Shown: piece after piece, positions 3,093-44,300 of the stretch
Numbering within the stretch: position 1 is the stretch's first letter
How the letters are laid out: each line of letters starts with the position of its first letter
Assembly (NCBI RefSeq): GCF_028640845.1
Contig: NC_080540.1
Location: forward strand, 130,972,420 to 131,036,419
Direction: 5' to 3'
DNA from: Ahaetulla prasina
Taxonomy: Eukaryota > Chordata > Lepidosauria > Squamata > Colubridae
DNA: 64,000 nt
The notes under the pieces: generated by a model
What the model saw: the letters and a program-made list of their open reading frames with translations, nothing else
Told to the model about the DNA's origin: nothing
The model's database searches: none
Translations under genes and position numbers: made by a program

Positions 3093-3848
3093 CAGTATGT
3101 AAAATTATCCTCTTGGCCAAGTCCAGACTTGGCCACAAAACCTGCTCAACTAGTTTATACTTTGCTTACCTCCTTTTACTTTTGCCATTTCTATTTTAAT
3201 GACATATTGCCTATTTGATAAGGTAGTTTCCTTCATCATAGCCAATTTTTAAGCAAGTTTTGCCTTACTTTTAAACAACCTTCCATCTTTATAACAGTGT
3301 AACTTCAGAAAAATGTAAGCCAGGAAATTAAACAAACATATGTTTCCTTGTCACTCATCTTCCTTAAATACAATTCAAAGCCATGATTATTTCAAATAAC
3401 TGCAGTTAGTCAAGAGCTGTTGCATGTTTATTATGTTATCCTGGGAAAAGAGATCAAACAAAGAATATGTTTCATATTTTGACTTACTGGATGCATTCCA
3501 TTAAACCATAATGACTAGAGTGCTAGAGCTGTTCAATGTAATAAAATATGTTCTACATAGTTTTATTATAAAGATGACAACCTTTGGTGTAATTGAAAAA
3601 TAATTGTAAGCATTTTGTTGTCCCTGTGTCATAGTTGAGTATGAATTTGCAGAAAATTGTGCATTGCTCTATCTATGCATGTAAAGCTGTATCTCATTAA
3701 TTTTCCAAAGGGGCCATTTTGACAGGAAATCTATTCTTTAAAAAAGTTACAGCTGATATTTTAATCTTGTCTTGTTTATAGTTTTTACTAACACCCTTGT
3801 ATTATTTTTCTTCCACTTTTTTCCTGGTCAGTAGTAGCTTATTGTATT
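3093..3848 (+). repeat. Left flank of LINE insertion, duplicated at 7166-7921
   Basis: This 756-bp block of HID1 intron 1 matches 7166-7921 at a constant offset of 4073, so there is no net insertion or deletion, with about five base substitutions. Here it is followed by the LINE tail. In the other copy it runs straight on into exon 2. It ends with GTATT, the left target-site duplication of the LINE. Confidence 0.92.
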
Positions 3849-4918
3849 TATTTATTTATTTATTTATTTAATTTAATTTTTATACCGCCCTTCTCCCGAA
3901 GGACTCAGGGCGGTGTACAGGCAAGATAAAAACCAACAATACAAATATACAAGTTAAAATACCCTTTAAAAACTTATTTAAAATAGCCCAAAGTTAAAAA
4001 TTGCCATCAGTTAAAACCCCATTTAAAATTAATAAAATTCCCTTATTAAAATCCAAATTTAAGCCAGCATAAATAAAAGATGGGTCTTCAGTTCATGACG
4101 AATGTCCGAAGGTCAGGTATTTGGCGTAAACCCGGGAAGCTCGTTCCAGAGTGTGGGAGCCCCACAGAAGGCCCTTCCTGGGGCCGCCAGCCGACATTGT
4201 TTGGCGGACGGCACCCTGAGAAGTCCCTCTCTATGGGGCGTGCGGGTCGGTGGGAGGCGTGTGGTAACAGCAGGCGGTCCCGTAAGTACCCAGGTCCTAA
4301 GCCATGGGCGCTTTAAAGGTCGTAACCAACACCTTAAAGTGCACTCGAAGGCCACAGGCAGCCAGTGCAGTCTGCGCAGGAGGCGGTGTTACATGGGAGC
4401 TACGCGTAGCTCCTCTATCACCCGCAGCTGCATTCTGGACTAACTGAAGCCTCCGAGTGCACTTCAAGGAGCCCCATGTAGAGAGCATTACAGTAATCCA
4501 AGCGAGAGGTAACGAGCGCATGAGTGACCGTGCATAAGGCATCCCGATCAAGGAAGGCGCAACTGCGAACCAGGCGAACCTGGTGGAAGGCCCCCTGGAG
4601 ACGGCCGTCAAATGATCTTCAAGCGACAGCGATCATCCAGGAGGACACCTAAGTTGCGCACCCTATCCTTTGGGGCCAATAACTCGCCTCCGACAGCCAG
4701 CTGCGGCTGCAGCTGACTGAATCGGGAGGCCGGCCTCCACAGCCACTCCGTCTTGGAGGATTAAGCTTGAGCCTGTTTCTCCCCATCCAGACCCGTCGGC
4801 TTCCAAACACGGGACAGCACTTCAACAACTTCATTGGGGTGGCCGGGGTGGAAAAGTACAGCTGGGTATCATCAGCGTACTGCTGGTATCTCACCCGAAA
4901 CCACTGATGATCTCACCG
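3849..4918 (-). mobile_element. CR1/L3-like LINE, 3' half (RT palm to tail)
   Basis: On the - strand it begins with the reverse transcriptase catalytic segment (RYQQYADDTQLYFS, near 4850-4894). It continues to DYCNALYMG near 4460-4500 and RRLQLVQNAAA near 4420-4450 in a shifted frame, then an untranslated tail with an ACCGCCCTGAGTCC box and a TAAA-type end at 3849. Several frameshifts make it non-coding. Its upstream half is at 8309-9289: the protein breaks at the same place in both halves, so they were one element of about 2 kb. A 5-bp target duplication GTATT (3844-3848 and 9290-9294) brackets the pair. Confidence 0.88.
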
Positions 4919-4975
4919 GCAAGATAAAACCAACAATACAAATATACAAGTTAAAATACCCTTTAAAAACTTATT
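4919..4975 (-). repeat. Short second copy of the LINE tail region
   Basis: About 57 bp repeat 3921-3977 of the same LINE, with single-base differences in A and T runs. It forms the first piece of the sequence that interrupts the LINE. The joint at 4918-4921 shares GGC with the source. Confidence 0.85.
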
Positions 4976-7165
4976 AAAATCCAAATGAAGCCTGGACTAT
5001 TTTAAAATTAACTTTTCAAACAGGACTAAGAGGAAGAAAATGAAATGAACAAACTCGGGTTTTCCAGTAGAAAACAGTGTAAATATATATGTGACCAAAC
5101 ATTTAATTATTCAGGAGTTATTCAGGAGTTATTCAGGAGTTATTCAGGAGTTATTCAGGAGTTATTCAGGAGTTATTCAGGAGTTATTCAGGAGTTATTC
5201 AGGAGTTATTCAGGAGTTATTCAGGAGTTATTCAGGAGTTATTCAGGAGTTATTCAGGAGTTATTCAGGAGTTATTCAGGAGTTATTCAGGAGTTATTCA
5301 GGAGTTATTCAGGAGTTATTCAGGAGTTATTCAGGAGTTATTCAGGAGTTATTCAGGAGTTATTCAGGAGTTATTCAGGAGTTATTCAGGAGTTATTCAG
5401 GAGTTATTCAGGAGTTATTCAGGAGTTATTCAGGAGTTATTCAGGAGTTATTCAGGAGTTATTCAGGAGTTATTCAGGAGTTATTCAGGAGTTATTCAGG
5501 AGTTATTCAGGAGTTATTCAGGAGTTATTCAGGAGTTATTCAGGAGTTATTCAGGAGTTATTCAGGAGTTATTCAGGAGTTATTCAGGAGTTATTCAGGA
5601 GTTATTCAGGAGTTATTCAGGAGTTATTCAGGAGTTATTCAGGAGTTATTCAGGAGTTATTCAGGAGTTATTCAGGAGTTATTCAGGAGTTATTCAGGAG
5701 TTATTCAGGAGTTATTCAGGAGTTATTCAGGAGTTATTCAGGAGTTATTCAGGAGTTATTCAGGAGTTATTCAGGAGTTATTCAGGAGTTATTCAGGAGT
5801 TATTCAGGAGTTATTCAGGAGTTATTCAGGAGTTATTCAGGAGTTATTCAGGAGTTATTCAGGAGTTATTCAGGAGTTATTCAGGAGTTATTCAGGAGTT
5901 ATTCAGGAGTTATTCAGGAGTTATTCAGGAGTTATTCAGGAGTTATTCAGGAGTTATTCAGGAGTTATTCAGGAGTTATTCAGGAGTTATTCAGGAGTTA
6001 TTCAGGAGTTATTCAGGAGTTATTCAGGAGTTATTCAGGAGTTATTCAGGAGTTATTCAGGAGTTATTCAGGAGTTATTCAGGAGTTATTCAGGAGTTAT
6101 TCAGGAGTTATTCAGGAGTTATTCAGGAGTTATTCAGGAGTTATTCAGGAGTTATTCAGGAGTTATTCAGGAGTTATTCAGGAGTTATTCAGGAGTTATT
6201 CAGGAGTTATTCAGGAGTTATTCAGGAGTTATTCAGGAGTTATTCAGGAGTTATTCAGGAGTTATTCAGGAGTTATTCAGGAGTTATTCAGGAGTTATTC
6301 AGGAGTTATTCAGGAGTTATTCAGGAGTTATTCAGGAGTTATTCAGGAGTTATTCAGGAGTTATTCAGGAGTTATTCAGGAGTTATTCAGGAGTTATTCA
6401 GGAGTTATTCAGGAGTTATTCAGGAGTTATTCAGGAGTTATTCAGGAGTTATTCAGGAGTTATTCAGGAGTTATTCAGGAGTTATTCAGGAGTTATTCAG
6501 GAGTTATTCAGGAGTTATTCAGGAGTTATTCAGGAGTTATTCAGGAGTTATTCAGGAGTTATTCAGGAGTTATTCAGGAGTTATTCAGGAGTTATTCAGG
6601 AGTTATTCAGGAGTTATTCAGGAGTTATTCAGGAGTTATTCAGGAGTTATTCAGGAGTTATTCAGGAGTTATTCAGGAGTTATTCAGGAGTTATTCAGGA
6701 GTTATTCAGGAGTTATTCAGGAGTTATTCAGGAGTTATTCAGGAGTTATTCAGGAGTTATTCAGGAGTTATTCAGGAGTTATTCAGGAGTTATTCAGGAG
6801 TTATTCAGGAGTTATTCAGGAGTTATTCAGGAGTTATTCAGGAGTTATTCAGGAGTTATTCAGGAGTTATTCAGGAGTTATTCAGGAGTTATTCAGGAGT
6901 TATTCAGGAGTTATTCAGGAGTTATTCAGGAGTTATTCAGGAGTTATTCAGGAGTTATTCAGGAGTTATTCAGGAGTTATTCAGGAGTTATTCAGGAGTT
7001 ATTCAGGAGTTATTCAGGAGTTGTTTTATTTTCAGTAACAGTGGCAAATAGTAAATACTTTTAATATTTTCTAAGTCATATATAGAGAGGACCAAAGAAT
7101 CAAAGAGTCAACAATTCTAGTGGTTCAGTTTATTTACACACACTGTGAGTTGAAAAATATTTTCA
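4976..7165 (+). repeat. Copy of 11143-11456 carrying the expanded 11-bp array
   Basis: The flanks 4976-5106 and 7021-7177 match 11143-11275 and 11298-11456 of HID1 intron 3, almost identically. Differences are mainly one- or two-base length changes in G or A runs. The main change is the array: 174 units here against two there. The right end joins 3093-type sequence through a shared 12-base CAGTATGTAAAA. Confidence 0.92.
5107..7020 (+). repeat. Perfect 11-bp minisatellite, TTATTCAGGAG x 174
   Basis: Exactly 1914 bp, or 174 units of TTATTCAGGAG, with no variant seen. At the related site 11276-11297 there are two units, the first with T for C at base 6. All three + frames are open across it and give the same 11-residue cycle (VIQELFRSYSG). 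That is a by-product of the unit having no stop in any forward frame, not evidence of a gene. There is no splice, start or codon-usage evidence for coding. Confidence 0.97.
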
Positions 7166-8308
7166 CAGTATGTAAAATTATCCTCTTGGCCAAGTCCAGA
7201 CTTGGCCACAAAACCTGCTCAACTAGTTTATACTTTGCTTTCCTCCTTTTACTTTTGCCATTTCTATTTTAATGACATATTGCCTATTTGATAAGGTAGT
7301 TTCCTTCATCATAGCCAATTTTTAAGCAAGTTTTGCCTTACTTTTAAACAACCTTCCATCTTTATAACAGTGTAACTTCAGAAAAATGTAAGCCAGGAAA
7401 TTAAACAAACATATGTTTCCTTGTCACTCATCTTCCTTAAATACAATTCAAAGCCATGATTATTTCAAATAACTGCAGTTAGTCAAGAGCTGTTGCATGT
7501 TTATTATGTTATCCTGGGAAAAGAGATCAACCAAAGAATATGTTTCATATTTTGACTTACTGGATGCATTCCATTAAACCATAATGACTAGAGTGCTAGA
7601 GCTGTTCAATGTAATAAAATATGTTCTACAGAGTTTTATTATAAAAATGACAACCTTTTGTGTAATTGAAAAATAATTGTAAGCATTTTGTTGTCCCTGT
7701 GTCATAGTTGAGTATGAATTTGCAGAAAATTGTGCATTGCTCTATCTATGCATGTAAAGCTGTATCTCATTAATTTTCCAAAGGGGCCATTTTGACAGGA
7801 AATCTATTCTTTAAAAAAGTTACAGCTGATATTTTAATCTTGTCTTGTTTATAGTTTTTACTAACACCCTTGTATTATTTTTCTTCCACTTTTTTCCTGG
7901 TCAGTAGTAGCTTATTGTATTAATGATGCATTCATGTTTATTCTGTCGGAAATATTGAATTGCTTTCATGCTACAGTATAGTATGTAATATTTTTCAGCC
8001 TTATATTTTAGTAGAGATCAGCAGAAGTTATCTTGAGGTATCTTGACATACTTATCAGATCAAATATTAAGTAGTATGAATATTGATCATAAATGAATAT
8101 CAAAATGAATATTTTATAGCTTTTGTGTTCCCAAATCGATTTTTATTTGTTTTTCAGCCCGTAGAGGCCACAGACGATGCCTTCTGGGACCAGTTCTGGG
8201 CAGACACAGCTACTTCAGTTCAAGATGTCTTTGCTCTAGTTCCAGCTGCAGAAATCAGAGCTGTGAGGGAAGAATCTCCTTCAAATTTGGCTACTTTGTG
8301 TTACAAGG
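7166..8308 (+). repeat. LINE-free (empty-site) copy of intron 1 end and exon 2
   Basis: 7166-7921 equals 3093-3848 and 7917-8307 equals 9290-9680. The two meet at one GTATT (7917-7921) with no LINE between them. This is what the locus looked like before the LINE inserted. The right half has one substitution in 391 bp, in the intron. The block ends at the first bases of the intron after exon 2, where LINE sequence resumes. Confidence 0.92.
8158..8307 (+). CDS. HID1: HID1 exon 2, duplicate copy (LINE-free version)
   Basis: This 150-bp exon encodes 50 residues starting [14 protein letters not shown] and ending NLATLCYK. It is preceded by a pyrimidine tract and TTTTCAG. It is base-for-base the same as the exon at 9531-9680. 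Its native donor is lost: after AAG the sequence reads GTAGAT, and those bases belong to a CR1-like LINE. It starts and ends in phase 0, so using both copies would add 50 residues without a frameshift. It may be an assembly duplicate rather than a second exon. Confidence 0.6.
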
Positions 8309-11300
8309 TAGATGTTGAACAGGGGGCGAGAGACCGACCCTGTGGGACCCCACAAGTGAGGCCTCGCGGCCCACCTCTGCCCCCGTCAACACCGTCTGCC
8401 GGTCGGAGAGATAGGAGGAGAACCACCGATATACGGTGCCTCCCACTCCCAATCCCCCAGCCGGGCGCAGCAGGATACCATGGTCGATGGTATCAACGCC
8501 GAGAGGTCTAATAGGACCAGGGCAGAGGAATAACCCTGTCCCTGGCCCTCCAGAGATCATCCACCAATGCGACCAAAGCTGTCTCCGTGCTGTATCCGGG
8601 TCGGAAGCCGGACTGGAACGGCTCTAGATAGACATCTTCATCCAGGTATTGGGGTAGCTGTCGCGCCACGGCACTCTCTACAACCTTCGCAACAAAGCGC
8701 AGGTTGGAACTGGGCGATAATTACCCAAAATAGCTGGGTCCAGGAGGCTTCTTAAGGAGGGTCTCACCACCGCCTCTTTCAAGGCGGCAGGAAAACCCTT
8801 CCAATAAAGAAGCATTGATAATCCTCTGGAGCCAGCCTCGTGTCACCGCCTGTGTGGCCAGTACCAGCCAGGGAGGACACGGGTCCAGTAAACATGTCGT
8901 GCCGTGCAGCCTCCCCAACAACCTGTCGACGTCCTCGGGTGCCACAGGGTCAAACTCATCCCAAATGACTCAACAAGGCGTGCCTCCTCTCCCTCGCTTG
9001 GATCATCCCAAATTCGGTCCAGACCGTCCCTCAGCTGGCGATTTTATCGTATAGATAACCACTAAACTCCTCGGCTCGTCCCTGCAAGGGTCATCCGCAC
9101 CTCCTGATGTAGGAGGCGGGTCACCCAAACAGGGCGGCCGGGCGGTTATCTGCCGGCGCAATGAGGGTGGGCGTGGGCGCCTCGCTTCCCTCATTGCCAC
9201 TAGGTAGGTCCTAGAATAGGACCTAACTAGTGTCCGATCAGCTTCGGAGCGACTGGACCTCCAGGTGCTCTCCAGGCGTCTTCTTCGGCGTATTAATGAT
9301 GCATTCATGTTTATTCTGTCGGAAATGTTGAATTGCTTTCATGCTACAGTATAGTATGTAATATTTTTCAGCCTTATATTTTAGTAGAGATCAGCAGAAG
9401 TTATCTTGAGGTATCTTGACATACTTATCAGATCAAATATTAAGTAGTATGAATATTGATCATAAATGAATATCAAAATGAATATTTTATAGCTTTTGTG
9501 TTCCCAAATCGATTTTTATTTGTTTTTCAGCCCGTAGAGGCCACAGACGATGCCTTCTGGGACCAGTTCTGGGCAGACACAGCTACTTCAGTTCAAGATG
9601 TCTTTGCTCTAGTTCCAGCTGCAGAAATCAGAGCTGTGAGGGAAGAATCTCCTTCAAATTTGGCTACTTTGTGTTACAAGGTAAGATTGAGCATATTTTT
9701 TTCCTGTTGCAATTCAGCCATAGCAGACCTGGGCCTTCTATGGCCCATAGGCCACATACAGCCCTTTGGCTGTCCGTGTCCAGCCCACGGTGGTGGCAAC
9801 AGCAGGGACCATGGCAGTGGTCCTATCAATTTGATCCTCCACAACTGTCTCTGGTTCAGTATTTCTTAGAGAACAAATTACTTTAAAATAATTGTGGGGG
9901 AAAGATATTGCCCTGTTTTCTGAAAAGCACTGACATTAAAAGCATCTCATTCACATATCCCTAAACAGGTATCTATGCTGACATGATTGCCTCCAATTTC
10001 TAAAAGCTCCACTTTGCGTCTTTCTCCCACATTTAAATTTATATGTGGACCAATGTGTTTCATCTACAAAGTCGCAAGAGCTCCTCTGTTACAGCGATTC
10101 AACTCTTTAAAGAATCTTCACAGTAATTTTCCTAGAACAGGCTAGAAAATGAGGTTTTGATGTCATAGCTTAAATCTTAGAATTCTCTCTCTCACTCAAG
10201 CATTATATGCAGCATATATGCAATCTCCATGAATCAAGCTGTCACATTCTGAGGGATTGTCTTTTTACGATAGATTTCCAGCGTATGTCCAAAAGGCATT
10301 AGCAACAATATAAAACTATTGCCTATTCGTTGTGGTATTAAGTTTTTAGTTCGTAATTCAGAAATCTGAGGCACTGGGCAAAAATTGTTACCCGCATACC
10401 AATAATTCATGTCCTTTGCTTTATTCTAATTCACTCCAGGCCGTAGAAAAACTAGTGCAGGGTGCAGAGAGTGGCTGTCACTCTGAGAAAGAAAAGCAGA
10501 TTGTCCTGAATTGCAGCCGTCTCTTGACCCGCATCCTACCGTATATATTTGAAGATCCCGATTGGAGAGGTTTCTTCTGGTCAACTGTTCCAGGGGCGGG
10601 ACGAGGAGGGGTATGTATTTATTAAATTGCATTATTCCTTTTCTGGAGAATGGAGAAAGATGCAGAAGCCAGTGCTGTTCGTTAATCAAAGGGCGTTAAT
10701 GGGAATCTAAATATCTTACCTGCTGGATTATGTTTATTCACAGTGAAGGAACTCTTATCAGGTTTGGGCATATTTGCCTTGTGTAATTTGTCTTGCTCTG
10801 ATCCTTTTAGATTTCTGTCTTTTAGAAAAATGCTGCAACATTCTTGCCTGGGAGATGGACTGAGACTCATGAATGGAAGGTTGATAAAGGAGCAGTCTGT
10901 TTTTATCACATGATTTTTATAGTACTAGCCTGTTTCCCCCGAAAAAAAATATCCCTTGATAATAAGCCTAATCGGGCTTTTGAGCGCATAGCAATAAAGC
11001 CAAGTGCTTTTTTCAGGGTTCAAAAAAATAGGGGAATCATTATTAATAATTATTAATTATTAATAATTAAAATTGAATTTCCACCTGTGGGAATTTCAAG
11101 AGAAAGTTTTGAACAGTAGCAAAACAGTAGCAAAAAGCAACCAAAATCCAAATGAAGCCTGGACTATTTTAAAATTAACTTTTCAAACAGGACTAAGAGG
11201 GAAGAAAATGAAATGAACAAACTCGGGTTTTCCAGTAGAAAAACAGTGTAAATATATATGTGACCAAACATTTAATTATTTAGGAGTTATTCAGGAGTTG

Positions 11301-14300
11301 TTTTATTTTCAGTAACAGTGGCAAATAGTAAATACTTTTAATATTTTCTAAGTCATATATAGAGAGGACCAAAGAATCAAAGAGTCAACAATTCTAGTGG
11401 TTCAGTTTATTTACACACACTGTGAGTTGAAAAAAATATTTTCACAGTATGTAAAAGTATTCCTATCATATGTTCATTTACTGAACAGTAAGATTTTTGT
11501 TCTATCATGATTCTGCCTATTTCTGGAACTGGGATATTTTGTAGTTCCACAAAATATGGGCAGTTCCAACACTGTGTATATGTACTAACCTTTTGTGTAT
11601 GTTTCACTGCATGCTTTTATATTTATTCCTGAATGTCCAAAATATATTCATTCTAAACCATTGCTTTTCATTGTTGTTCCCGGTACAGCAATTGAAAGAG
11701 CTTTTTTACCGTACATGAATTTTAATAACTTTTGTTATAGTTGCAGCACAGGCTTCACATGTATCCCATTATTGGCTTTTCTAATATGGAGGCATTATTT
11801 TTGTGTGGTGGCTATGTATCCCTACTGTATCTTCTCTGTTTGCCTTCTATCCTGAGTCCTATCCTTAAAATCCACATATCTTATGTTAATAGTGTGAGAA
11901 CTGATATTGATGCCTGTGTAGAGTTTTGTGAACAAAGTACATGCACAAGGTATGTACATTCACATAGAAAGTATTTTTATTGAAGCATCAGGAACTGTTA
12001 TAACTCTAAAAGAATATGCCTGAGGACTCTTCCAAAAACTGCTCTAGTCTGATATAGAAAGCCTGAATCCAGATTCTTGTTTCACTCCCTTCCCCACCAG
12101 TAATGAAGTAATTGTTTTTCAAAGATGTTTTAATCCATTTTTTTACCCATCTTTGGATCATTTGGTTACTAAATAAATAAAAACGTTCATACTCTGTTTC
12201 CCTGAAAATAAAACATCCCCTGATAATAAGCCCAATTGGCCTTTTGAGCACATATGCTAAAATAAGCCTCCCCCCTGAAAATAAGCCCCCCCGAAAATAA
12301 GCCCCCCCAAATATTTAAATGCAGAGATGGAAATCAGGTAAGATGGCAAGAGGAGTCCCATCTTGCTCCACGCACCCCAAAATAATAAGACCACCCCAAA
12401 AATAAGGCCAAGCGCTTATTTCGGGGTTCAAAAATATAAGGCAGAGTCTTATTTTCGGGGAAACATGGTAGTTACTCTTTTGAATGCTCCTGGCAGTAAT
12501 TAAGAAGTGTGTGATTAGAATTGAGCATCTTTAGTTCTATAGTAATACTAAAAATGTTTTGCTATCATGTGGAAACACCTGTATGAATAATTTTTTTCTC
12601 CTAGTTCCATGTTTCTCCCATTTCCTGTCAAAGAATGTGACCAGAATTCAAATCATGGTTCAAATATAATCATTCAGACACTTTCAATATGTGCTGATAT
12701 GCATATACCACACAGCCATTTATACTTGTAATATGATTTCTCAATTAGATTTTTTTCTTAATTTTGAAACAGTTTGATCAAATCAGCCATTCTGGTCAAA
12801 TTCCCCTTATGAGATGTAACACAAGGTCCTATCTTAATCCTCATAATTCTGTACTGAAACAGAAAATGTGAGGGGACAGGGTTTTTTTTAAAAAAGCAAA
12901 CAATCATTAATTAATATGAAAATAGAACAGAATGTTGTTTCTTATTCACTTGCAATTTGTCCTGACTGCAGCTATGACTTATGTACCTGCATTGGTTGCC
13001 AGCTCACTGGATTTTTCCTGCATCCTATTCTACCTTGGAATCACTCAGACCTATGCAGCTGATTTAAGTGTGTTGCTTTGTAAAACATTTTAAATAATTA
13101 ATCTAGCAGGTGGCAACCTACAGCTGTCCTTGCTGATCTCAGAAGCTAAGCAGGATCAACCCTGGTTAGTACATAGAGAGGGGGTAGCTTGGGAATCCCA
13201 GAACTGTAGACCAGAAATATGACCCCCAGCTCCAACTCTGAAAATGACAGTGGTAAAACATTTCCATAATGCTATTGTATCCTCTGGCATAGAAGATCCA
13301 ATTACTATGCTAAGTTCAACTCGAAGGCATCTTTATTATTTTACTAGATATTATAATTCTGGAAATGCATGAAAATGCTTGATATTTAGAATAGAATAAG
13401 AGAGTTGGAAGGGATCTTGTAGATCATCTAGTCCAACCTCCTGCTCAAGCAGGACACCCCACATAATTTCTGATAGATGGCAGTCCAATCTGTTCCTGAA
13501 AGCCTCCAGTGATGAAGCACCCACAACTTCCGAAGGCAAGCTGTTCCATTGGTTGATTGCTCTCACTGTCAGAAAATTTCTTCTTATTTCTAGGTTGAAT
13601 TTCTCCTTGTTCAGTTTCCATCCATTATTCCTTGTCTGGCCTTCAGGTGCTCTGGACAAATAGGTTGACCTTCTCCTCTCTGTGACAACTCCTTATTTGT
13701 AAAATAACAGATTAATCTTCACTCAGTAAATTCTATAAATACAATACTTCTGAGCTAGTTCTATTGAGCTCAGCAAAAGTTAAAAGTATACAATTATTGT
13801 AGTGTTTTCTGTTCATTTGACTGAGCTGGAGAATCTCAGGTAGAATTGTAATCAGTAATTTATCAGTGCTGTACAGCTTTTTTCTGCGTGGTATGGCTTT
13901 GTTTTAAATATCCTCATTATTATGGGTTTGATGGAGTCATAAAATGATCTCTTTAGTAAACTGATTCATGCTTTTAACCTTTAAGATTCTAAGGCTCCTT
14001 TTTCCTTCTGTAATTTCAAAGCTAAATGAAAGTATCTGCAGTTGATTTTTTTTAATGTCTTGCGACTGTTTACTGCATTTGAAACACTTTTATTAGATGT
14101 TCTGATGTGGCACTAGATAATGTCAGATCAATACAGGTTATTATTATAATCCAGTCTGCTTGCTGTGAGTGAAAGGCTTTGTGTCTATGTCATTCATAAG
14201 CTGATACAGCCTGGCTGTCGCAGATAAGAGCCTGTCATTTTTTTTCAGCATGGGGTGGGGGCAGGAATATGAGATCCGGAATGAGTATGGAGGTGGGGGG

Positions 14301-32300: not shown

Positions 32301-35300
32301 GTATATACTGCTACATACATTGCCTTTTGTTCTCTAAATTTTTCATATCACTCTTTTTGCAGATCTCAAATCTGTCTATACATGATTCCTTTGATCTTTC
32401 CTTCCGTCCTCACCATCCATTTATTTTTTCTTCATGTTTGTTTTGCACCTTGATCATCATTCACTCTGCATATGACCAACCTTAATGAATATTGTTTCTA
32501 CAGTCACTAATTTGTGTAATGCTTTATCTTCCTGATCAGTCAAACTTGATCCTATCATATCCTGTTTTACTCTACAGATTTTAAATACTCTATTCCCTGT
32601 ATTCTATTTATATTTACATATCTCCACTTCCCTAAAGTGGACAGAAACATGTTGTTATAAGGAGCCATTTCTTCCTTTTTTGACAAATACTCATTTCTCA
32701 CAATAGTCAGTGTCCTTCCCTTCCCTTTTTGTGACCCTAATCCCAAAACTAGATGGTTCCACATTCAAAACTTCTCCTTACCTTTACATTCTTCACTAAT
32801 TCCCTCAGTCATTCGCAGGAGACATCACACTTTTTGGTTTCTATTCATTCTTTTGCCATGTACAAAAATGAGAAGACTTATGCTTAAACCATGTAATAAA
32901 ACCTGTAAATCTTTTTCTTATTTTTTTCTTGTCTCTTTGACTGGCCCATTCACTTTTTCTGCATTTTCTCTCACCTAGCAGAATATTTTTCCTTTAAGTC
33001 TAATTTACTGGGAAGGTTGCAAAATTGTTCCCCAAACTAATCTCTAGTTGTCCCATTGTCACCATTCACTGGATTGTAAGATGTAATTGTCACCAACTAT
33101 TGACTTATACTTTGATATTCTCCCATAGTAATGTAGATAATGCCAATTCATACTTTCAGAAAAGTATGTAATACTTAGCACTTTCATTCATTATTAAACC
33201 TGTACATTCACTTCCTTGCATATATTCATCAATTCCATATCACGGTATCAGGCTGCCTTCTTTCAAATATATTATATCATTCCACTTTCTCACAAACACA
33301 TTTTTCCACTTCTTTGGTTTGCTAATTTATGCTCTTTACAATTCACTCCTCTGCTCTTCCAAGTTGTGATTTTTGTAGGCCATAGACACTACTGGATATG
33401 CCATACATGTTGCACATCACGGCTTTGGTCAATTGAGGCTTTCACATAGTGCTTTTTTGTAAGGTAGAAAAAAATATAGATTGTGTTACTAGCCTTTGTT
33501 GCACCCATCCTCCATGCAGTATTACATTCTATTTCTAAGGATAGTGTGGACTTGTTTGGATATATATTGATATTATAGTACAAGCAAAACCAAAACTCAA
33601 TTTGAACTTTAAAGACACTTATGCTATTCAAAACAAGCTGTAATATCTAACTGGCATCTACCTTGCAAGTTAGCATACTGTTACTTACATCCTGCCAATT
33701 AATACATCCAGGGCTTTGGATCATAGGTCATGCATATGATCTTAACATTAGTTGATGTTCTTTATGATCTTTATCCTTATGGTTGTCTGTGTTATGTATT
33801 AACAGTTGTGCCTTTAAATATTTGGGCGGGAAATCAGCACGTTGCTGATTGGACGAAGCCTCCAGCAGAACTGTATAAAAGGAGAGGTTTTTCCCCCAGC
33901 CTGTCGCTGGGTTCACCCTATATTAAAGAGCTGTTGTCACTACCCTGGTCTCCAGCCTCGTTACTTCCCGAACTTAACATTGGCGACGAAGGTGGGATCT
34001 CGAGGCTAAGGAGAACCAGAACCGAGCTGAAGCACGCTAGTCCCGAACCCAGCAAACTCAGGGCAGAATGGCAAACACGCCACCCGCACCGTACAACCCG
34101 GGCAAGGAGAAATGGGGGACATATATGACCCGTTTCGAAAGCTTTCTAGAAGCCAACGAACTACAGGGGATCCCCGATAACCGCAAACGGGCTTATTTCC
34201 TAAGCCATTGCGGGCCGGAGGTAATCGAGATTGCGGAAGCCCTGGCAGAGCCAACGCCGATACAATCGGTATCGTGGCCGACTCTGCAGACTTTACTGAA
34301 GAACCATTTCGCACCGACGCCGTCCAAATACGTGCAACGGTTTGAATTCGGAGAACGTAGACAGATGGAGGGCGAGTCCATCGGTGACTACATGGCCGCC
34401 TTAAGAAGAGCGTCCAAGGACTGCGGATACCGAGACTTAGACGAAGTGCTACTCGAGCAACTCATCCGAGGGGTCAAGGACATCCGCCTACGGCGACGAC
34501 TGCTAGCCAGGAGCAACCTGACACTAGCCACCGCTCTGGACGAGGCCAGAGCACACGAAATGTCTACTAAAGCAGCAGAGACTCTGCAAAAGCCTCTTCA
34601 ATCCAAGGCGAGCGCAAAGCCAACGCCAGTACACCAGGAGGAGATTCAGTCCGAATCCGAAGGTGAGGGCGAGGATGAGGAAGGGGTCTGCCGGACCGAG
34701 AAACGCGACACTGAGGACCGTGACGAGTGCGGAAGCTGCGGAGGGCAGCATCAGCGCCAACGCTGCAGGTTTAAAGACGCAACATGCCGGCGGTGTGGGA
34801 AGAAAGGACACTTAGCTCAGGTTTGCAGAGCGGCCCAACCTTCCCGCCGAAAATTCAAATCGGCCAATCAAAACGCGGAACCGGAAAGGCGGCCCGCGAT
34901 TGGTTCAAACAAGAAAGGCGCGAAGTCTAACCAAACGACTGTCATTATAGGCCGCGCCTCAACCAAAGTGGAAAAGAAGATTTTCACAAAGCCCAAGATC
35001 GAGGGAGTACGGTGCAGGCTTGAAGTAGACACGGGATCAGCGATCACCATCATGTCCTGGGACACCCTGGCGAAGTCGCTGCCGTCCGTCGCGAAGCGCC
35101 ATCTGCAAGCACAGCGGCTACGAGTGCACGACTACCAGGGAAATCGCATCCCTGTTCGAGGGACCACCTCCGTCCGAGTCGAGTACGGCCCTCACAAAAA
35201 GACCCTGCCCATCACGATCGTCGAAGGAACTCTGCCCAGTCTGTTGGGACTAGACTGGTTTCGTGCCCTGGGCATGGGAGTGACTGGCATCTACAGAAGT

Positions 35301-38300
35301 GACTGCAATTTGAAAGACATTCTCTTTAACGAGTTCAAGATGTCTTCAAGGACTGCCTGGGCAAGTACAAGGGGACCCCTATTTCCTTCAACTTAGACCC
35401 CAGGTAGCCCCCATTAGGCTTAAGGCGAGGAGAGTCCTTTGCCCTAAAACCAAAATTGATAAGGAGCTGGACAAGCTCATAAATCAGGGGTTTTGGTGCC
35501 AGTCGATCACGCAAAGTGGGAGACGCCAATCGTCACCCCATCAAATCGGACGGGTCAATTAGAATTTGCGCTGACTACAAGGCGACGCTTAACAAAGCCT
35601 TACAGAAAAGCGCTTACCGGTTCCGTGGTGCAACATTTATTGCACTCCTTGGGGCAAGGGCAAGTCTTTGCAAAGTTAGACTTGGCCCAAGCCTACCAAC
35701 AACTGCCAGTAGACGCCCGCACAGCGAAGCCCAAACGATTGTGACGCACAGGGGGCATTCAAGTGCACCGATTGCAATTTGGGGTTAGTGTGGCACCAGG
35801 GCTGTTCCAAAACCTGATGGAACGACTACTGCAAGGGCTCCCAGGGGTAGTTCCCTACTTCGATGATGTCCTAATTTCAGGGGAAGACATGGAGGAATTG
35901 GGGGAGCGGTTAAGAAAGGTCTTGAGCATTTTCCGGACAGCGGATTAAAAGTCAAGACAAATAAATGTCAGATAGGGGTCGAATCGGTCGATTTCTTGGG
36001 CTACGGATAGACAAGAAAGGAATTCACCCTACTGAGAGCAAAGTTAAGGCAATTAGGAAGGCTCCAGCGCCCAAAAACAAAGCAGAGCTGCAGGCATTCC
36101 TGGGATTGGTTAATTTTTACGCGGTCTTTTTAAAGAACAAAGCAACCGTTGCGGAACCGCTGCATAGGCTCTTAGGAAAAAATACTGTTTGGTCTTGGGG
36201 AAAGTCAGAAAATAGGGCTTTTGAAGCAGTAAAGAACCTGCTCTCAAGTGATAGCCTGCTCATCCAATATCACGACTCACTACCCCTAGTGCTGGTTTGC
36301 GATGCGTCCCCTTATGGGGTGGGGGCTGTACTCAGCCATAGGCTTCCAAACGGCACAGAAGCCCCTATAGCGTTCTACTCTAGAACGATGTCCTCCCCAG
36401 AGAGGAACTACAGCCAATTAGACAAAGAAGCATTAGCCATTGTATCAGGGGTCAAAAAATTCCATGAGTATGTCTTTGGGCGGAATTTTGAAATCGTGAC
36501 TGACCACAGACCGTTACTGGGATTACTGGCTGGCGACCGGCCAACGCCTGTGGCACTTTCGCCACGTTTGACTCGATGGACTATATTTATAGCCGCTTAC
36601 TCATACAAGCTGCAGCATCGACCGGAAAAGAAGTGGGGCATGCAGACGCATTGAGCCGATGCCCACTGCCAGGGGCGATCAAGACCCCACCCGGGACACC
36701 CATCCTCCTTATTGACTCGTTGGACTCTGGCCCAGTCACATCAAAGGAAGTGGCTCGGCATCATACCGACATTGTGTTAAGGACTGTACTCGGTTGGGTA
36801 CAGAGAGGGTGGCCGCTGCGCCGGGCGAACGGTTCAAAGAATTTGTTAAGAAACGTGATGAGCTCTCGGCTCAAGGGGTGCCTGTTATGGGGTGATCGTG
36901 TAATAATTCCTGTTAAGTTAAGGGCAAGGTATTGGACCTCCTCCACGAGGGTCACCCAGGCATCGTAAGGATGAAGGGTTAGCTAGAAGCTATGTATGGT
37001 GGCCACTCATGGACGCAGAGATTGCTGAGAGGGTAGGGAAATGCCAAGCTTGCCAAGAGTCCAGACCGCTACCCCCAACAGCCCCAGTCAGAGAATGGGA
37101 AAAGCCCCAAGGGCCTTGGTCAAGAATCCACATTGATTTTGCTGGCCCCTTTCACGGCCAAACGTTCCTAGTGGTGGTGGACGCATTTTCCAAATGGTTA
37201 GAGATCATACTTATGAAATCCACCACAGCCGAAGCAGTAATCGCAACCCTGCGCCACCTATTCGCAACTCACGGGTTGCCGGACACTCTGGTGTCCGACA
37301 ATGGGCCCCAATTCACGGCAGCCCAGTTTGAAGAGTACCTGGCAGAGGAAGGCATCCGACATGCCCTCTCTGCACCTTTCCACCCTGCGTCGAATGGCCT
37401 TGCAGAGCGTTCCGTCCGGAGCGCTAAGGAGGCATTGTCCAGGCTCAAGCCAGGTGACTGGCAAACAAAAATAGACTTTTTCCTAGCCGTCCAACATAGA
37501 ACCCCAAGCACAGCCACTGGGAAAAGCCCAGCCGAATTGCTAATGGGACGAAAACTCCGGTGTCCCCTTGACCGTTTGAACCCCCATTACACACCCGAGG
37601 GTTACAAGGGGGAGCTAGAAAAAACAAGGGAAATGAGCATAGGCGACCGGGTGTGGGCCCGAAACTATGGGGACGGCCCTAGTTGGCTCGCAGGACACGT
37701 AACAAAGGTAACAGGGCCAAAATCGTATGTGGTAGAGCTACCAGACAACCGAATGTGGCGGCGCCACATAGATCAGTTAAGGAAACGAATAACTGACCAA
37801 ACCGAACCAACAGAGACAGGTAATGACCAATACCACTTTGAATCCACAGCTGACAATGACCCGGGGGAGGCGCAAGACTTAGCTGAGGTCCCAGAGTTCC
37901 AGCGACGCCATCAGGTCCCCGAGGGAAACAGCAAGGAAAATTCCAAAATTAATCCAAGGCCGGATGGCCAAGAAAAAGAGTCGGCCAATAATCCAGAGCC
38001 CGATGGCCCAGAGAAAGAGCTGGGAGGAGAAAACAGCCCCTCCGACCAGCTCAAAACACCACCCAGAACTGAACCGCGCAGGTCAGAAAGAACTAGGAGA
38101 CGCCCAGGTTATTTGCGTGACTACGTCGAAAAATAACATGTAAATAAATATGTAAATAAGACCAAGTGTTTTCTGGGAGGGGAGGAGTGTTATGTATTAA
38201 CAGTTGTGCCTTTAAATATTTGAGCGGGAAATCAGCACGTTGCTGATTGGACGAAGCCTCCAGCAGAACTGTATAAAAGGAGAGGTTTTTCCCCCAGCCT

Positions 38301-41300
38301 GTTGCTGGGTTCACCCTATATTAAAGAGCTGTTGTCACTACCCTGGTCTCCAGCCTCGTTACTTCCCGAACTTAACAGTCTGCATATGCACAAGAACAAT
38401 TTGGGTGTTCAAGCAGTAGTTCCCAAAACATCAAGGTTTTGTTTTTAAATAGCATATTAGGAACAGTATTGTTTCTGTTTTAGTGTGAGGAGGCTTTCTG
38501 ATAACAGATTAATCATTCTGCTGATTCAGGAAAATGATAACCAAAACCAGAGGTGGTATTCAGCAGGTTCTGACTAGTTCTGAAGAACCGGTAGTGGAAA
38601 TTTTGAGTAGTTTGGAGAACCAGTAAATACCACCTCTGGCTGGCCCTGCTATTCTCTGCCTCCTGAGTCCCAGCTGATCGGGAGGAAATAGAAGTTTTGC
38701 AGTAATCTTCCCTTGGAGTGGGTGGGAATGGAGATTTTTACAATATCCTTCCCCTGCCACGCCCATCAAGCCATGCCATGCCTACCAAGCCACGTCCATA
38801 CAACCGGTAGTAAAAAATTTTGAATCCCACCATTGACCAAGACTTTTAACTCAACCCACTTCCATCACCTCTTCACCTCAAACAGAGCCATTTCTCTCTT
38901 CTTGTCAGCCCAAAGGCCAGAAACGTGGCAGTGAAATCCAATTGAGTCCAATCCTTAGTTTGCTTATACCTAATAGACAGAATCTTACCAAACTAAAGCT
39001 ATAACTTTCTAAGCTACTAGATATATCCTGAAAGATTCTAGGGTGTGGCTACACTGAATTGTTTTCCCCTTCAGCTTGTAACCTCTCCGTCTTTTGATCT
39101 TGGTCTCTTCCTGGGAACACACTCAGTGGACAAAATCCTCCCCTGCTGTTGCGGCGGCAAGTGCACATTCCATCACACTTCTTAACCATGTGCAGCCTAA
39201 TATTTCTCTACTTCATTATTTGTTTATTCCACCAAACTTTGTTTTCTTCAGTTTTTCTGTGGGAAAAGAAACAGCTTTCCTACATATGAAGACTCAGTGC
39301 AGTATGTTGTCAGATTAATGAGAGCGACAATGAGGAAATGATTTCTTGGTTTGAAGCTGAAGCTTGCCCTAAAGGTTTCATTAGCTAATCATGATCTTCC
39401 ATAGAAACTAAGATTGCAGTAACTGTCCTAGGAACCACATCTTCTACTTGTCTCTACTTGTATGACCTGTATATCTCACCCGTGGTTGTCCTACAAGTCT
39501 TTCCTTTTTTTAATCTTTCAATTTTTTATTAAGTTATAAAGTATTATAAAATGCAAATGCAAATAGGAGAGTAATGGGGGGAGGGGGAAAAAGTGAGGAA
39601 AGATAGCGGGGGTGGGGGTGGGAGGAAGAAAAAGAAGCACTGACTTCTGACTCTCTGTTACAGTAGAATAAGGCATTAACAACAGATCACGCTTTTCCAT
39701 AATAGTATGAAGAAGTCATTTCTATAAAGATCGATCAATCTAATCTGTAAAACCCAAATCAAGGTTTCATTCTTTTCCACATCAAGCATGAAGTTCAGAA
39801 GTGGTTTCCATGCAGAAATAAAAGTACTTATGTTCTTTTCTTTAATCAAGTTAGTCAGTTTTGCCATTTCAGCCAATTCCATCAACTTCTGCAACCATTC
39901 CTCCATGGTAGGAATCAAAGTGTCCTTCCATTTTTGTGCATACAATAAATAGTCTTGCTGCTGTCAACATATATATAGTAACAAAGTTCCATATATTTTC
40001 TCCACTTCTTTTTCCATTAGACCCAAGAGGAAAAGTTCTGGTTTCATTTTTATCTCCATTTTCAGAATTTTATGCATTAAAATATGAATCATAGTTCAAT
40101 TTTTTTTGCTTTATCACATATCCACCATAGACAATAAAAAGTGCCTTCTTTATTTTTACACTTCCAACATACATTTGGCATGCCTTTATACACTTTAGAT
40201 AACACCAGACAAGCTATACAAAGTTTTCTGCAAGTCTTACCTATCATGGAGGACTGTCAAAGAATGCCCAAATTTCTGGGCTCTATAAAAAATGGCAGTT
40301 GCAGAACTACAAAGGCTTAGAGATTAATCCAGCTCCTAGGATCCCTCTTTGGAAATACATCTGTGGGAACATACACTACAAGTGCCATCTAGAATCTTGA
40401 TTCTTGGCTCCTTCACATTTCTAGTAAAATTATGGCCCACTGTAGGACAGGATTAGGGTGAGATGGCTCAGTGGTTAAGATGCTGAGCTTGTCACCTGGA
40501 AAGCCAACAGCCTAGGTTCGAGACCTGAACACTGTGCAACAGGGTGAGCTCCCGTTACTTGCACCAGCTTCTGCCAACCTAGCAGTTCAAAAGCATGCAA
40601 ATGTGAGTAGATAAATAGGTACCACTTCGGTGGGAAGGTAACAGTGTACCATATTTTCATGCTGGCTACATGATAATGGAAACATTTCTCAAACAATGCA
40701 GGCTCCCTAGGCTAAGAATTGGAGATGAGCACTGCTCCCTTGAGTTGGTCACAACTGGAAAGGGGAAACCTTTAAACTTTTAGACAGAATATTTGGTTCA
40801 TTGCTGCTTCTGACCACTGGATGGCAGCACCTACTTGAGATCTTGGCTCTTGCGCCATTCAACTATTGGTATTTGATGAATAACTCTTTCTGACTATTAT
40901 TTTATTTATTTGTCACAACATTATATACAGGAACATATATTGAAAGGAAAAAATAGGACAGGAACGGTAGGCACTTTTGTGCACTTATGCACGCCCCTTA
41001 AATATTAGATAGCAAGCTTTCCAGAGAATAAATGTAACTTTCTCATGTTAGAGTATCTTCCAGACTCTCAAGCTGATAGCAACAGAATATTTGGTTCATT
41101 GCTGCTTCTGACCACTGGATGGCAGCACCTACTTGAGATCTTGGCTCTTGCGCCATTCAACTATTGGTATTTGATGAATAACTCTTTCTGACTATTATTT
41201 TATTATTTTATTTTATTTATTTGTCACAACATTATATACAGGAACATATATTGAAAGGAAAAAATAGGACAGGAACGGTAGGCACTTTTGTGCACTTATG

Positions 41301-44300
41301 CACGCCCCTTAAATATTAGATAGCAAGCTTTCCAGAGAATAAATGTAACTTTCTCATGTTAGAGTATCTTCCAGACTCTCAAGCTGATAGCAACAGAATA
41401 TTTGGCCACTGCCACTAAGTTAAAATTGGATATTTTGCTACCAAATTCTGGCACTGCAACTTTATGGTACTTCAAGGCAGCATTAATGACTAATGGAGTC
41501 AAGTCAAAGATTTTACAGAGGACATCTTTGTACTTCTTTTTTTAAATTGTTAACATTATTCAAAATAAAACATCCAGTGACAAACGCCAACAATAATAGT
41601 ACTAGGCTAAACAAATGAAATGAAAAAACGAAATGAGCAATGTAGAATCATTCCTCCTGGTGTTTTTCCTCAACCTCAAACAATCCACTGTAATATAAAG
41701 TCCTCTTTCTTGAAGATTGAGGGCCATAATCAGCGTGGGTGGCTGATTTTTTCCAGGCTAGGGCTTAGAAAGGGGGACTGATCTGAAATCATTCAGCCAG
41801 TTCTGTGTCCAATGAAATCTTAGAACTTGGATCTTCCTGCTCTTAGTCCAGCATCTTAACCATTACATTACTCTGGTTCTCAATATTTTCAATTAGTTAC
41901 TCTTAGTATTTTAAAATCATATTTCAGTGCATATAAATCCTATTGGGGAGGGAATAGGGCCAGGAAGGGTCTTCAAAATTACAGATTAAACTGGCTTCCA
42001 ATCCACAGCTTCCTTTATTTCTGGATAGTGTGGATCTTGGAGCAGGACCTCTTTAGATGATCTCACAGAGAGGGCAGAAGCAGTTTGAAGAACCTGGTCC
42101 CTGATACAACTCAAAGTTATACTGCAAAGAATTTTATAGCACTTTACATTAGATCTGGAAGGTTGCCAGTAACCAGTGTAGTGGGCCAAAAGTAGGCATA
42201 CTGCAATGTTGAGTCACCTATCAGCATTCTGCAATACAGGCTACTACATCCTGTACCAATTGAAACTTATTTTCAAAGGATCTTGTGGAGAGCACAGTGT
42301 AGCAGCTGAGGAATGCAGTGATGAGTGAATGAGTATTTGTTGTTGGGGTTTGATTATCCTTTGGAACTAGTGTTCCTTCCTAAGCTTGGCAACGGGGGCC
42401 ACCATTTTCTCTTTTAGCAGGATTCAAACGTTGGATACTTCCAAGTCATACTATCACTGGGAACATTTTTTCTGGGCAGCCCAAATGTATATAATGGTGC
42501 ATCTATCTTGCTAGTAGTTAATTTGAATACATTTTGCCCTTAACAACATCCAGTTCTCCATAACATCGCTGCCCAAGCTTGGAAGGCAACATACAGCTGA
42601 ATATTATCAACATGGTACCTCATCCCAAACCAACTGGTGACTGTACCCAGTTATTATATGCTATACATTATACGCTATATACTATATACTGGTGACTGTA
42701 CCCAGTTATTATATGCTATACATTATACGCTATATACTATATACTATATATTGTATGCATGTGTGTTTGTTAGTTAAATGGCATGGAAAAAGGCCCTGAG
42801 CCCTATTGGATCATCTATATGCTCAACTATTTCTCCCTTAATGACTGTCAGCTAGTAGTGCCCACTCAAGGAGTGGAATCACCCTTAAAGGGCGCTTCTT
42901 GTCTTTGCAGGTAGTCCAGAAGAAAATTGTGGTTGATTATATTGCATGCTAGTGAGAGGCATAAAAAGACTCCCATTCAAGCCCTAATGAAAATCATTTG
43001 CAGCATGGTGATGATTAAAATAATGTTTTAAATGAGATCAGTGTAAAACACACTTAACGATAAAATAGACTGATGATGACACTTGTTACGCATAATACAA
43101 CAGTGCAATATTCCTTAACCAAGGAGATCATATATATCACCAAAACAAATGCATTAATAAAGAAGAGCTATATGGTATTTAAAATTATATATTGAATTCG
43201 ATTTTCTAGCCTGTTTTCCCCAAAATAAGACATCCCCTGATAATAAGCCCAATCGGGCTTTTGAGTGCATGGCAATAAGGCCAAACACTTATTTTAGGGT
43301 TCAAAAAAATATAAGACAGGGTCTGATTTTCAGGGAAACATGGTAGTAGGCTCATCTCTGTTATCTTAGTAATAAATAGGAAAAGCTTATTTTGCCCTGA
43401 CTACTAGTAAGCACTCTGAAAAACAAAATTGTTCATGGAAGGAAACAACAGGTGGAACATTTCTAGAAGGCCTGGAATTTGTATATATGGATGTTTCGTG
43501 GGTGTTTGAGTTGGAAAGGGGAAGCTCTTTTATTTCTTTGGAAATAATCAGAAGTTGGAACGACTGCAACATTTTTTAAAAAATTATATCCTAATTGAAT
43601 TGGAGCCTTGCTTCATTTAATAGGTTGGAATATCCTTTTCTGTGCCAGACCTGTGATATAGACAGGAGGGATCCTGTGATGCATTTTTCATGAATAAATG
43701 TAGTTTGACATCCCCACTGTAATATAGAATGTTCAACAGTTTGTCGCTAGATCAAAGTAATGCTCTTGTACAAATAGAAAATAATGTATATGTAGCTCAG
43801 GGTTGGACTGTGGAGTCCTTAGTTCTTCCTGTGGTTGGTGTTCTCTAAGAGAGCCAAGGACTCCCTAATGTTTTTGGGTGCTCAGGAGAAAGAGTGAGTG
43901 AATATTTATGGATAACATTTGGTAAGGTTTCCTGAGAATGCTAGAGAATTTTTGTGGTTTTTCAAAATCACCCTTTCATATTTGTTATGGAAGAATCTAA
44001 TCTATGGCTGGCTGGGGAAGCTGAAGTCCACAAGTCTTAAAGTTGCCAAGGTTAGACAGCCTTAATCTAATCTAAGTTTATACACTATAATATATTTTAC
44101 TATATAATATCATATAATATAAATATTAAGCAAAAATAAGAACATGGGGACATAGCCTCAAACTAATGAAGAGAAGTTTAGAAGTATTTCAGAAGTATCA
44201 CTTCACAGAAGGAGTAGTTGGAAATTTGGAACCAACATCCAGGGGAGGTAACAACAGTAACTAAGTTTACATACACTTGAGATAAATACATGTCCATAAA

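Follow-up and report, generated by a model that had tools for sequence, protein, structure and literature searches.

This locus raises the question of how the unoccupied target site of a LINE, together with a second copy of a neighboring exon, came to lie within that same LINE. The window, by which we mean the whole stretch of 64,000 nucleotides that was analyzed, sits on a 304.6-Mb contig in an assembly of 1.77 Gb and 745 contigs. The gene concerned is HID1-like: three exon translations joined as one query, with the ends of the third exon piece placed by eye, matched the Pfam family Hid1 (PF12722; E 2.7e-42) and, more poorly, Dymeclin (E 1.6e-32). A motif search did not find HID1 exon 1 within the window, and exon 2 alone gave no Pfam family and no solved relative. 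We take the duplicated exon to be exon 2, the number used in the initial annotation. The LINE, presumably of the CR1/L2 type, spans 3849-9289 in all and is split by an insert. The element and its native surroundings are as follows.

3093-3848, plus strand: A, the native sequence left of the LINE, in the HID1 intron that precedes exon 2; source of A'
3844-3848, no strand: left GTATT target-site repeat of the LINE, read from the sequence
3849-4917, minus strand: L1, the 3' part of the LINE, tailed by (TTTA)n at 3849; other copies in the genome align with it
8308-9289, minus strand: L2, the 5' part of the LINE, which resumes after a 12-bp loss; GTA at 8308-8310 is common with the exon 2 donor
9290-9294, no strand: right GTATT target-site repeat of the LINE, read from the sequence
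9295-9683, plus strand: B, the native right flank with exon 2, from sequence comparison
9531-9680, plus strand: native exon 2, inside B

The initial annotation described GTATT on both sides of the LINE and a single GTATT in an empty copy of the site, and both can be read directly from the sequence, the single GTATT being located at 7917-7921. Flank and one GTATT are continuous at 7166-8310, as expected of an unoccupied site.

7166-7921, plus strand: A', the copy of the left flank, with 5 substitutions relative to A
7917-8310, plus strand: B', the empty LINE site with one GTATT, the right flank and the second copy of exon 2

The flank copies had been estimated to differ by about 0.3-0.7%, and their near identity was borne out. 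With the 5 bp of GTATT counted in both comparisons, 3093-3848 and 7166-7921 differ by 5 substitutions and no indels in 756 bp (0.66%), and 9290-9682 and 7917-8309 by 1 substitution and no indels in 393 bp (0.25%). The empty copy does lie inside the split LINE, but the break points assigned to it had to be corrected to 4917/4918 and 8307/8308. A break in the polymerase protein had also been placed at the split; the reading frames are broken at other places too, and one of the six LINE frames tried matched RVT_1, weakly (E 0.0075, 16.4 bits versus a cut-off of 29.6). Little weight should be put on the broken frames.

The inserted stretch (4918-8307, 3.4 kb) holds the empty copy, as annotated, but begins 2.2 kb ahead of it. 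It consists of several pieces copied from nearby templates, the sources of which are still present in the window.

4918-4975, plus strand: LINE scrap, the first piece of the insert, 58 bp matching LINE 3920-3978
3920-3978, minus strand: LINE stretch that matches the scrap, from sequence comparison
4976-7177, plus strand: D', a copy of 11143-11456 enlarged by an 11-bp array, from sequence comparison
5107-7020, plus strand: the array, 174 identical units of TTATTCAGGAG, from tandem-repeat and sequence comparison
11143-11456, plus strand: D, the native segment copied in D', where the 11-bp unit occurs twice (11276-11297)

Natively the blocks run A, (LINE), B, C, D, with D about 1.5 kb downstream of exon 2. 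Since the scrap and D' stand ahead of the empty copy, the order in the insert is LINE scrap, D, A, B, and all pieces share one orientation. Sequence comparison gave no match in the insert for block C (9684-11142, 1459 bp). Outside the array, D' differs from D by 1 substitution and three short homopolymer contractions. One of the two native units of the 11-bp repeat has a T/C difference, and the array may either have expanded during repair synthesis or have been copied from a homologue that already carried a long array. Judged by sequence, the scrap could have originated in another LINE copy rather than in its own LINE, as copies with similar identity to it are present among the matches listed in a genome search. 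Two further tandem structures occur elsewhere in the window: a 55-bp unit array at 42633-42745 (2.1 copies, 100% matches), and a tandem duplication of about 311 bp at 40784-41405, with 13 additional bases in a TTTTA-rich stretch of the second copy.

A search of the assembly with 7021-8330, which passes over very common words, returned 4 candidates at 4 places, all in this window. For A', B' and the right-hand portion of D', this search gave matches in the window only; the left-hand portion of D was included in just one other genome search, in which 40 of 1110 candidates were scored. With the 7021-8330 query, neither a paralogue or unplaced haplotig nor a second copy of the plain empty allele was found in the assembly.

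The LINE lacks 12 bp at the insertion point. Of 38 LINE stretches that were fetched (three pairs overlap), 13 reach the base matching 4917 when counted by eye, and 12 of these run on into L2, all with exactly 12 bp between the equivalents of 4917 and 8308; the insertion therefore removed 12 bp from the LINE. The thirteenth copy (L025, 12.8% mismatched) gave no L2 match. No target-site repeat surrounds the insert in the joint sequences. All four joins in the insert are non-allelic, and microhomology is clear at only one, that between D' and A'.

7166-7177, plus strand: the D'/A' joint, 12 bp CAGTATGTAAAA, common to D (11445-11456) and A (3093-3104)

The right joint, where the exon 2 donor meets the LINE, has 3 bp in common (GTA, 8308-8310); the joint between the scrap and D' has 0 bp in register, or 5 bp (AAAAT) if one T was lost; and the left joint (4917/4918) has no common bases. 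Among 4000 random position pairs, at least 8 common bases occurred in 0, at least 5 in 0.6% and at least 3 in 5.8%. A bridge through LINE 4042-4058, where the 17-bp word CTTATTAAAATCCAAAT is present, was considered for the scrap/D' joint; it is possible, but was not adopted, as the loss of one T accounts for the joint equally well.

Our preferred explanation, to which we assign a probability of roughly 0.6, is that a break in the LINE was repaired by serial template switching and that one of the templates was a LINE-free chromosome. A young LINE would have entered the HID1 intron with duplication of 5 bp, as is seen from the target repeats and the empty copy, and a later break would have occurred within the LINE on that chromosome. 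Repair would then have proceeded by serial copying in one direction throughout, with the 3' region of the LINE as the first template and the DNA downstream of exon 2 as the second, followed by a switch back upstream via the 12 common bp, copying through the unoccupied site and exon 2, and rejoining to the LINE at GTA with the loss of 12 bp. The putative process would be a templated insertion, of the kind made by MMBIR/FoSTeS or polymerase theta. The template of A'-B' was most likely the homologous chromosome in an animal heterozygous for the LINE, because this template was without the LINE and LINEs are not known to leave precise empty sites. An empty homologue had already been proposed as template for a recent duplication; it is still the best fit, as one step of a multi-piece insertion, whereas plain duplication is not.

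We infer the LINE break, the serial switching and the LINE-free homologue; in their support stand the pieces, their order and common orientation, the 12-bp loss, the 12 common bp at D'/A' and the fact that no second place was found. Against them stand the left joint, which is without microhomology, the scrap/D' joint, which has none in register, and the 3-bp match at the right joint, which is not rare by chance (5.8%); in addition, the excess of deletions in the LINE (see below) may signal an imperfect consensus, and the scrap is possibly from another LINE copy. If the event is real, the LINE acts as a built-in label marking the template as another chromosome, something that is difficult to establish for small insertions. 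The locus would then also show how a duplicated exon and a homogeneous minisatellite can arise side by side. It is rather doubtful that one germline repair event in a LINE heterozygote both copied the empty homologue and raised a 2-unit repeat to 174 units, with the birth of a minisatellite; if it did, the in-frame second HID1 exon 2 also arose inside the LINE.

If A' and A separated before the LINE inserted, the divergence of the LINE has to be compatible with the small differences between the flanks. L1 differs from its four nearest copies by 5 clean substitutions in 657 columns, 2 of them private to L1 (13 further differences beside gaps were left out of the count). As far as the alignments indicate, this is compatible with the flank differences of 5 in 756 and 1 in 393 bp. 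An old LINE, hard to reconcile with flanks this alike, was rejected, as the 13 other differences adjoin gaps and 3 of the 5 clean substitutions are also found in other copies of the family. L1 also carries 23 deletion events in 1045 columns (32 deleted positions); among 15 other aligned copies from the 38 stretches, 12 have 0-6 deletions, one has 10 and two have 21. The nearest long copies by substitutions are L041 (24) and L042 (27), yet 21 of the 32 deleted positions are common with L032, which is 57 substitutions away, and 16 with L009. Since the deletions recur against substitution kinship, their excess may reflect errors in the consensus of insufficiently polished repeats. Of the 32 positions, however, only 15 fall within runs of at least 3 equal bases, and the source may instead be common ancestry of the LINE copies or gene conversion between them. 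Apart from its cause, the recurrence of deletions in L1 (3849-4917), L009 and L032, copies that are not near by substitutions, is an observation in its own right. The non-homopolymer deletions and the presence of microhomology at one joint only have opposite effects on the odds, which are left unchanged.

The most serious rival, although unlikely, is an assembly artefact, in which empty-allele DNA came to lie in the LINE through a chimeric read, through gap filling or through an intricate joining of haplotypes. It has to be weighed because the deletion excess may represent consensus errors and the sequence is known from the assembly alone. Consensus error would produce the 23 deletion events in L1, against 0-6 in 12 of the 15 other copies, and their recurrence in L032, and an artefact would also fit the three homopolymer contractions in D' and the fact that the plain empty allele was not found elsewhere with 7021-8330. 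It nonetheless requires that all four joins be non-allelic, that 12 bp of the target be lost and that one joint fall on a 12-bp common word. A' (756 bp) and B' (393 bp) are free of indels, which would be unlike single-read filler, and as fewer than half of the deleted positions are in homopolymer runs (15 of 32), it is not proven that the deletions come from noisy reads. The initial annotation's alternative, in which a filled haplotype was simply joined to an empty one, would have joins only at homologous positions. It is disfavored by the LINE scrap, the misordered downstream segment and the four non-allelic joins, as well as by the D'/A' joint on 12 common bp and the 12 missing LINE bp, and was rejected as the main reading.

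Improbable, in our judgment, is a circle from the empty homologue, comprising A-B-C-D closed at the 12-bp repeat, which opened in C and entered a break in the LINE. The D-A-B order of the insert is a circular permutation of the native A-B-C-D, the closing joint falls on the 12-bp repeat that flanks the segment, and such a change of order marks circular intermediates as outlined in PMC7450558; the full permutation is nevertheless not seen, as C has no match in the insert, and the LINE scrap demands a separate capture. It is more improbable still that the empty locus had undergone an old tandem duplication before the LINE arrived and was later cut down to the present order by deletions: the D'-A' junction is exactly that expected of a tandem-duplication joint, but each LINE half would need an independent cut, at places only 12 bp apart. 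Formation of the insert during LINE integration, by a switch of synthesis or repair to the still empty sister chromatid, is barely credible, for although the pieces, by their orientation, would follow the first-strand synthesis direction of a minus-strand LINE and a fresh insertion should have an empty sister, synthesis must exit and then re-enter the same LINE RNA 12 bp on.

The locus resembles several known systems. In humans, templated patches at breaks are known as polymorphisms (PMC5110952). As in the Class 2 templated sequence insertion polymorphisms outlined there, a patch at a break is accompanied by a microdeletion and microhomology (clear here at one joint), with no target-site repeat round the patch. 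The microdeletion and the lack of a target-site repeat are both found here, but the distant source of the Class 2 patch is replaced by a chain of local pieces, one of them from a LINE-free allele, and a 174-unit array. Interchromosomal template switching by MMBIR, with replicative repair inferred to switch between homologues in large human rearrangements (PMC6480824), is similar in kind; as summarized there, it concerns large triplications in which the homologue is known by allele ratios, whereas here the insert is 3.4 kb and the homologue is known by the absence of the LINE. Block order permuted as from a circle has been seen in human duplications (PMC7450558) and is shared with duplication through circular DNA intermediates (PMC7450558, PMC7188851); unlike the cases presented in those reports, the present one has a block missing, an added LINE scrap and a target inside the donor region. 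Template switching with microhomology has also been reported at human meiotic hotspots (PMC7615360). Such features are combined here in one small locus; the titles and abstract openings covered by our literature search contained no account of a LINE whose own unoccupied site had been copied into it.

Exon 2 is 150 bp long, and both copies give 50 identical residues.

8158-8307, plus strand: extra HID1 exon 2, 150 bp, open in frame, with donor AAG/GTAGAT

The extra exon retains its acceptor. On a donor-frequency score its donor reached 2.09, whereas native exon 2 reached 6.85 and exon 3 reached 2.29. Of the 3337 GT sites in the window, 3.9% scored at least as high as the extra donor. Given the open frame, the retained acceptor and this donor score, transcripts that contain exon 2 twice are conceivable.

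Other candidate mobile elements occur in the window. Direct repeats of 191 bp at 33789-33979 and 38187-38377 have 2 differences, end in TAACA and have GTCTG outside on both sides, so that 33789-38377 looks like a young LTR element of about 4.6 kb. A 147-bp stretch at 18926-19072 matches its own reverse complement at 94% and has relatives at 44780-44914 and 54805-54944; it is perhaps a palindromic DNA transposon.
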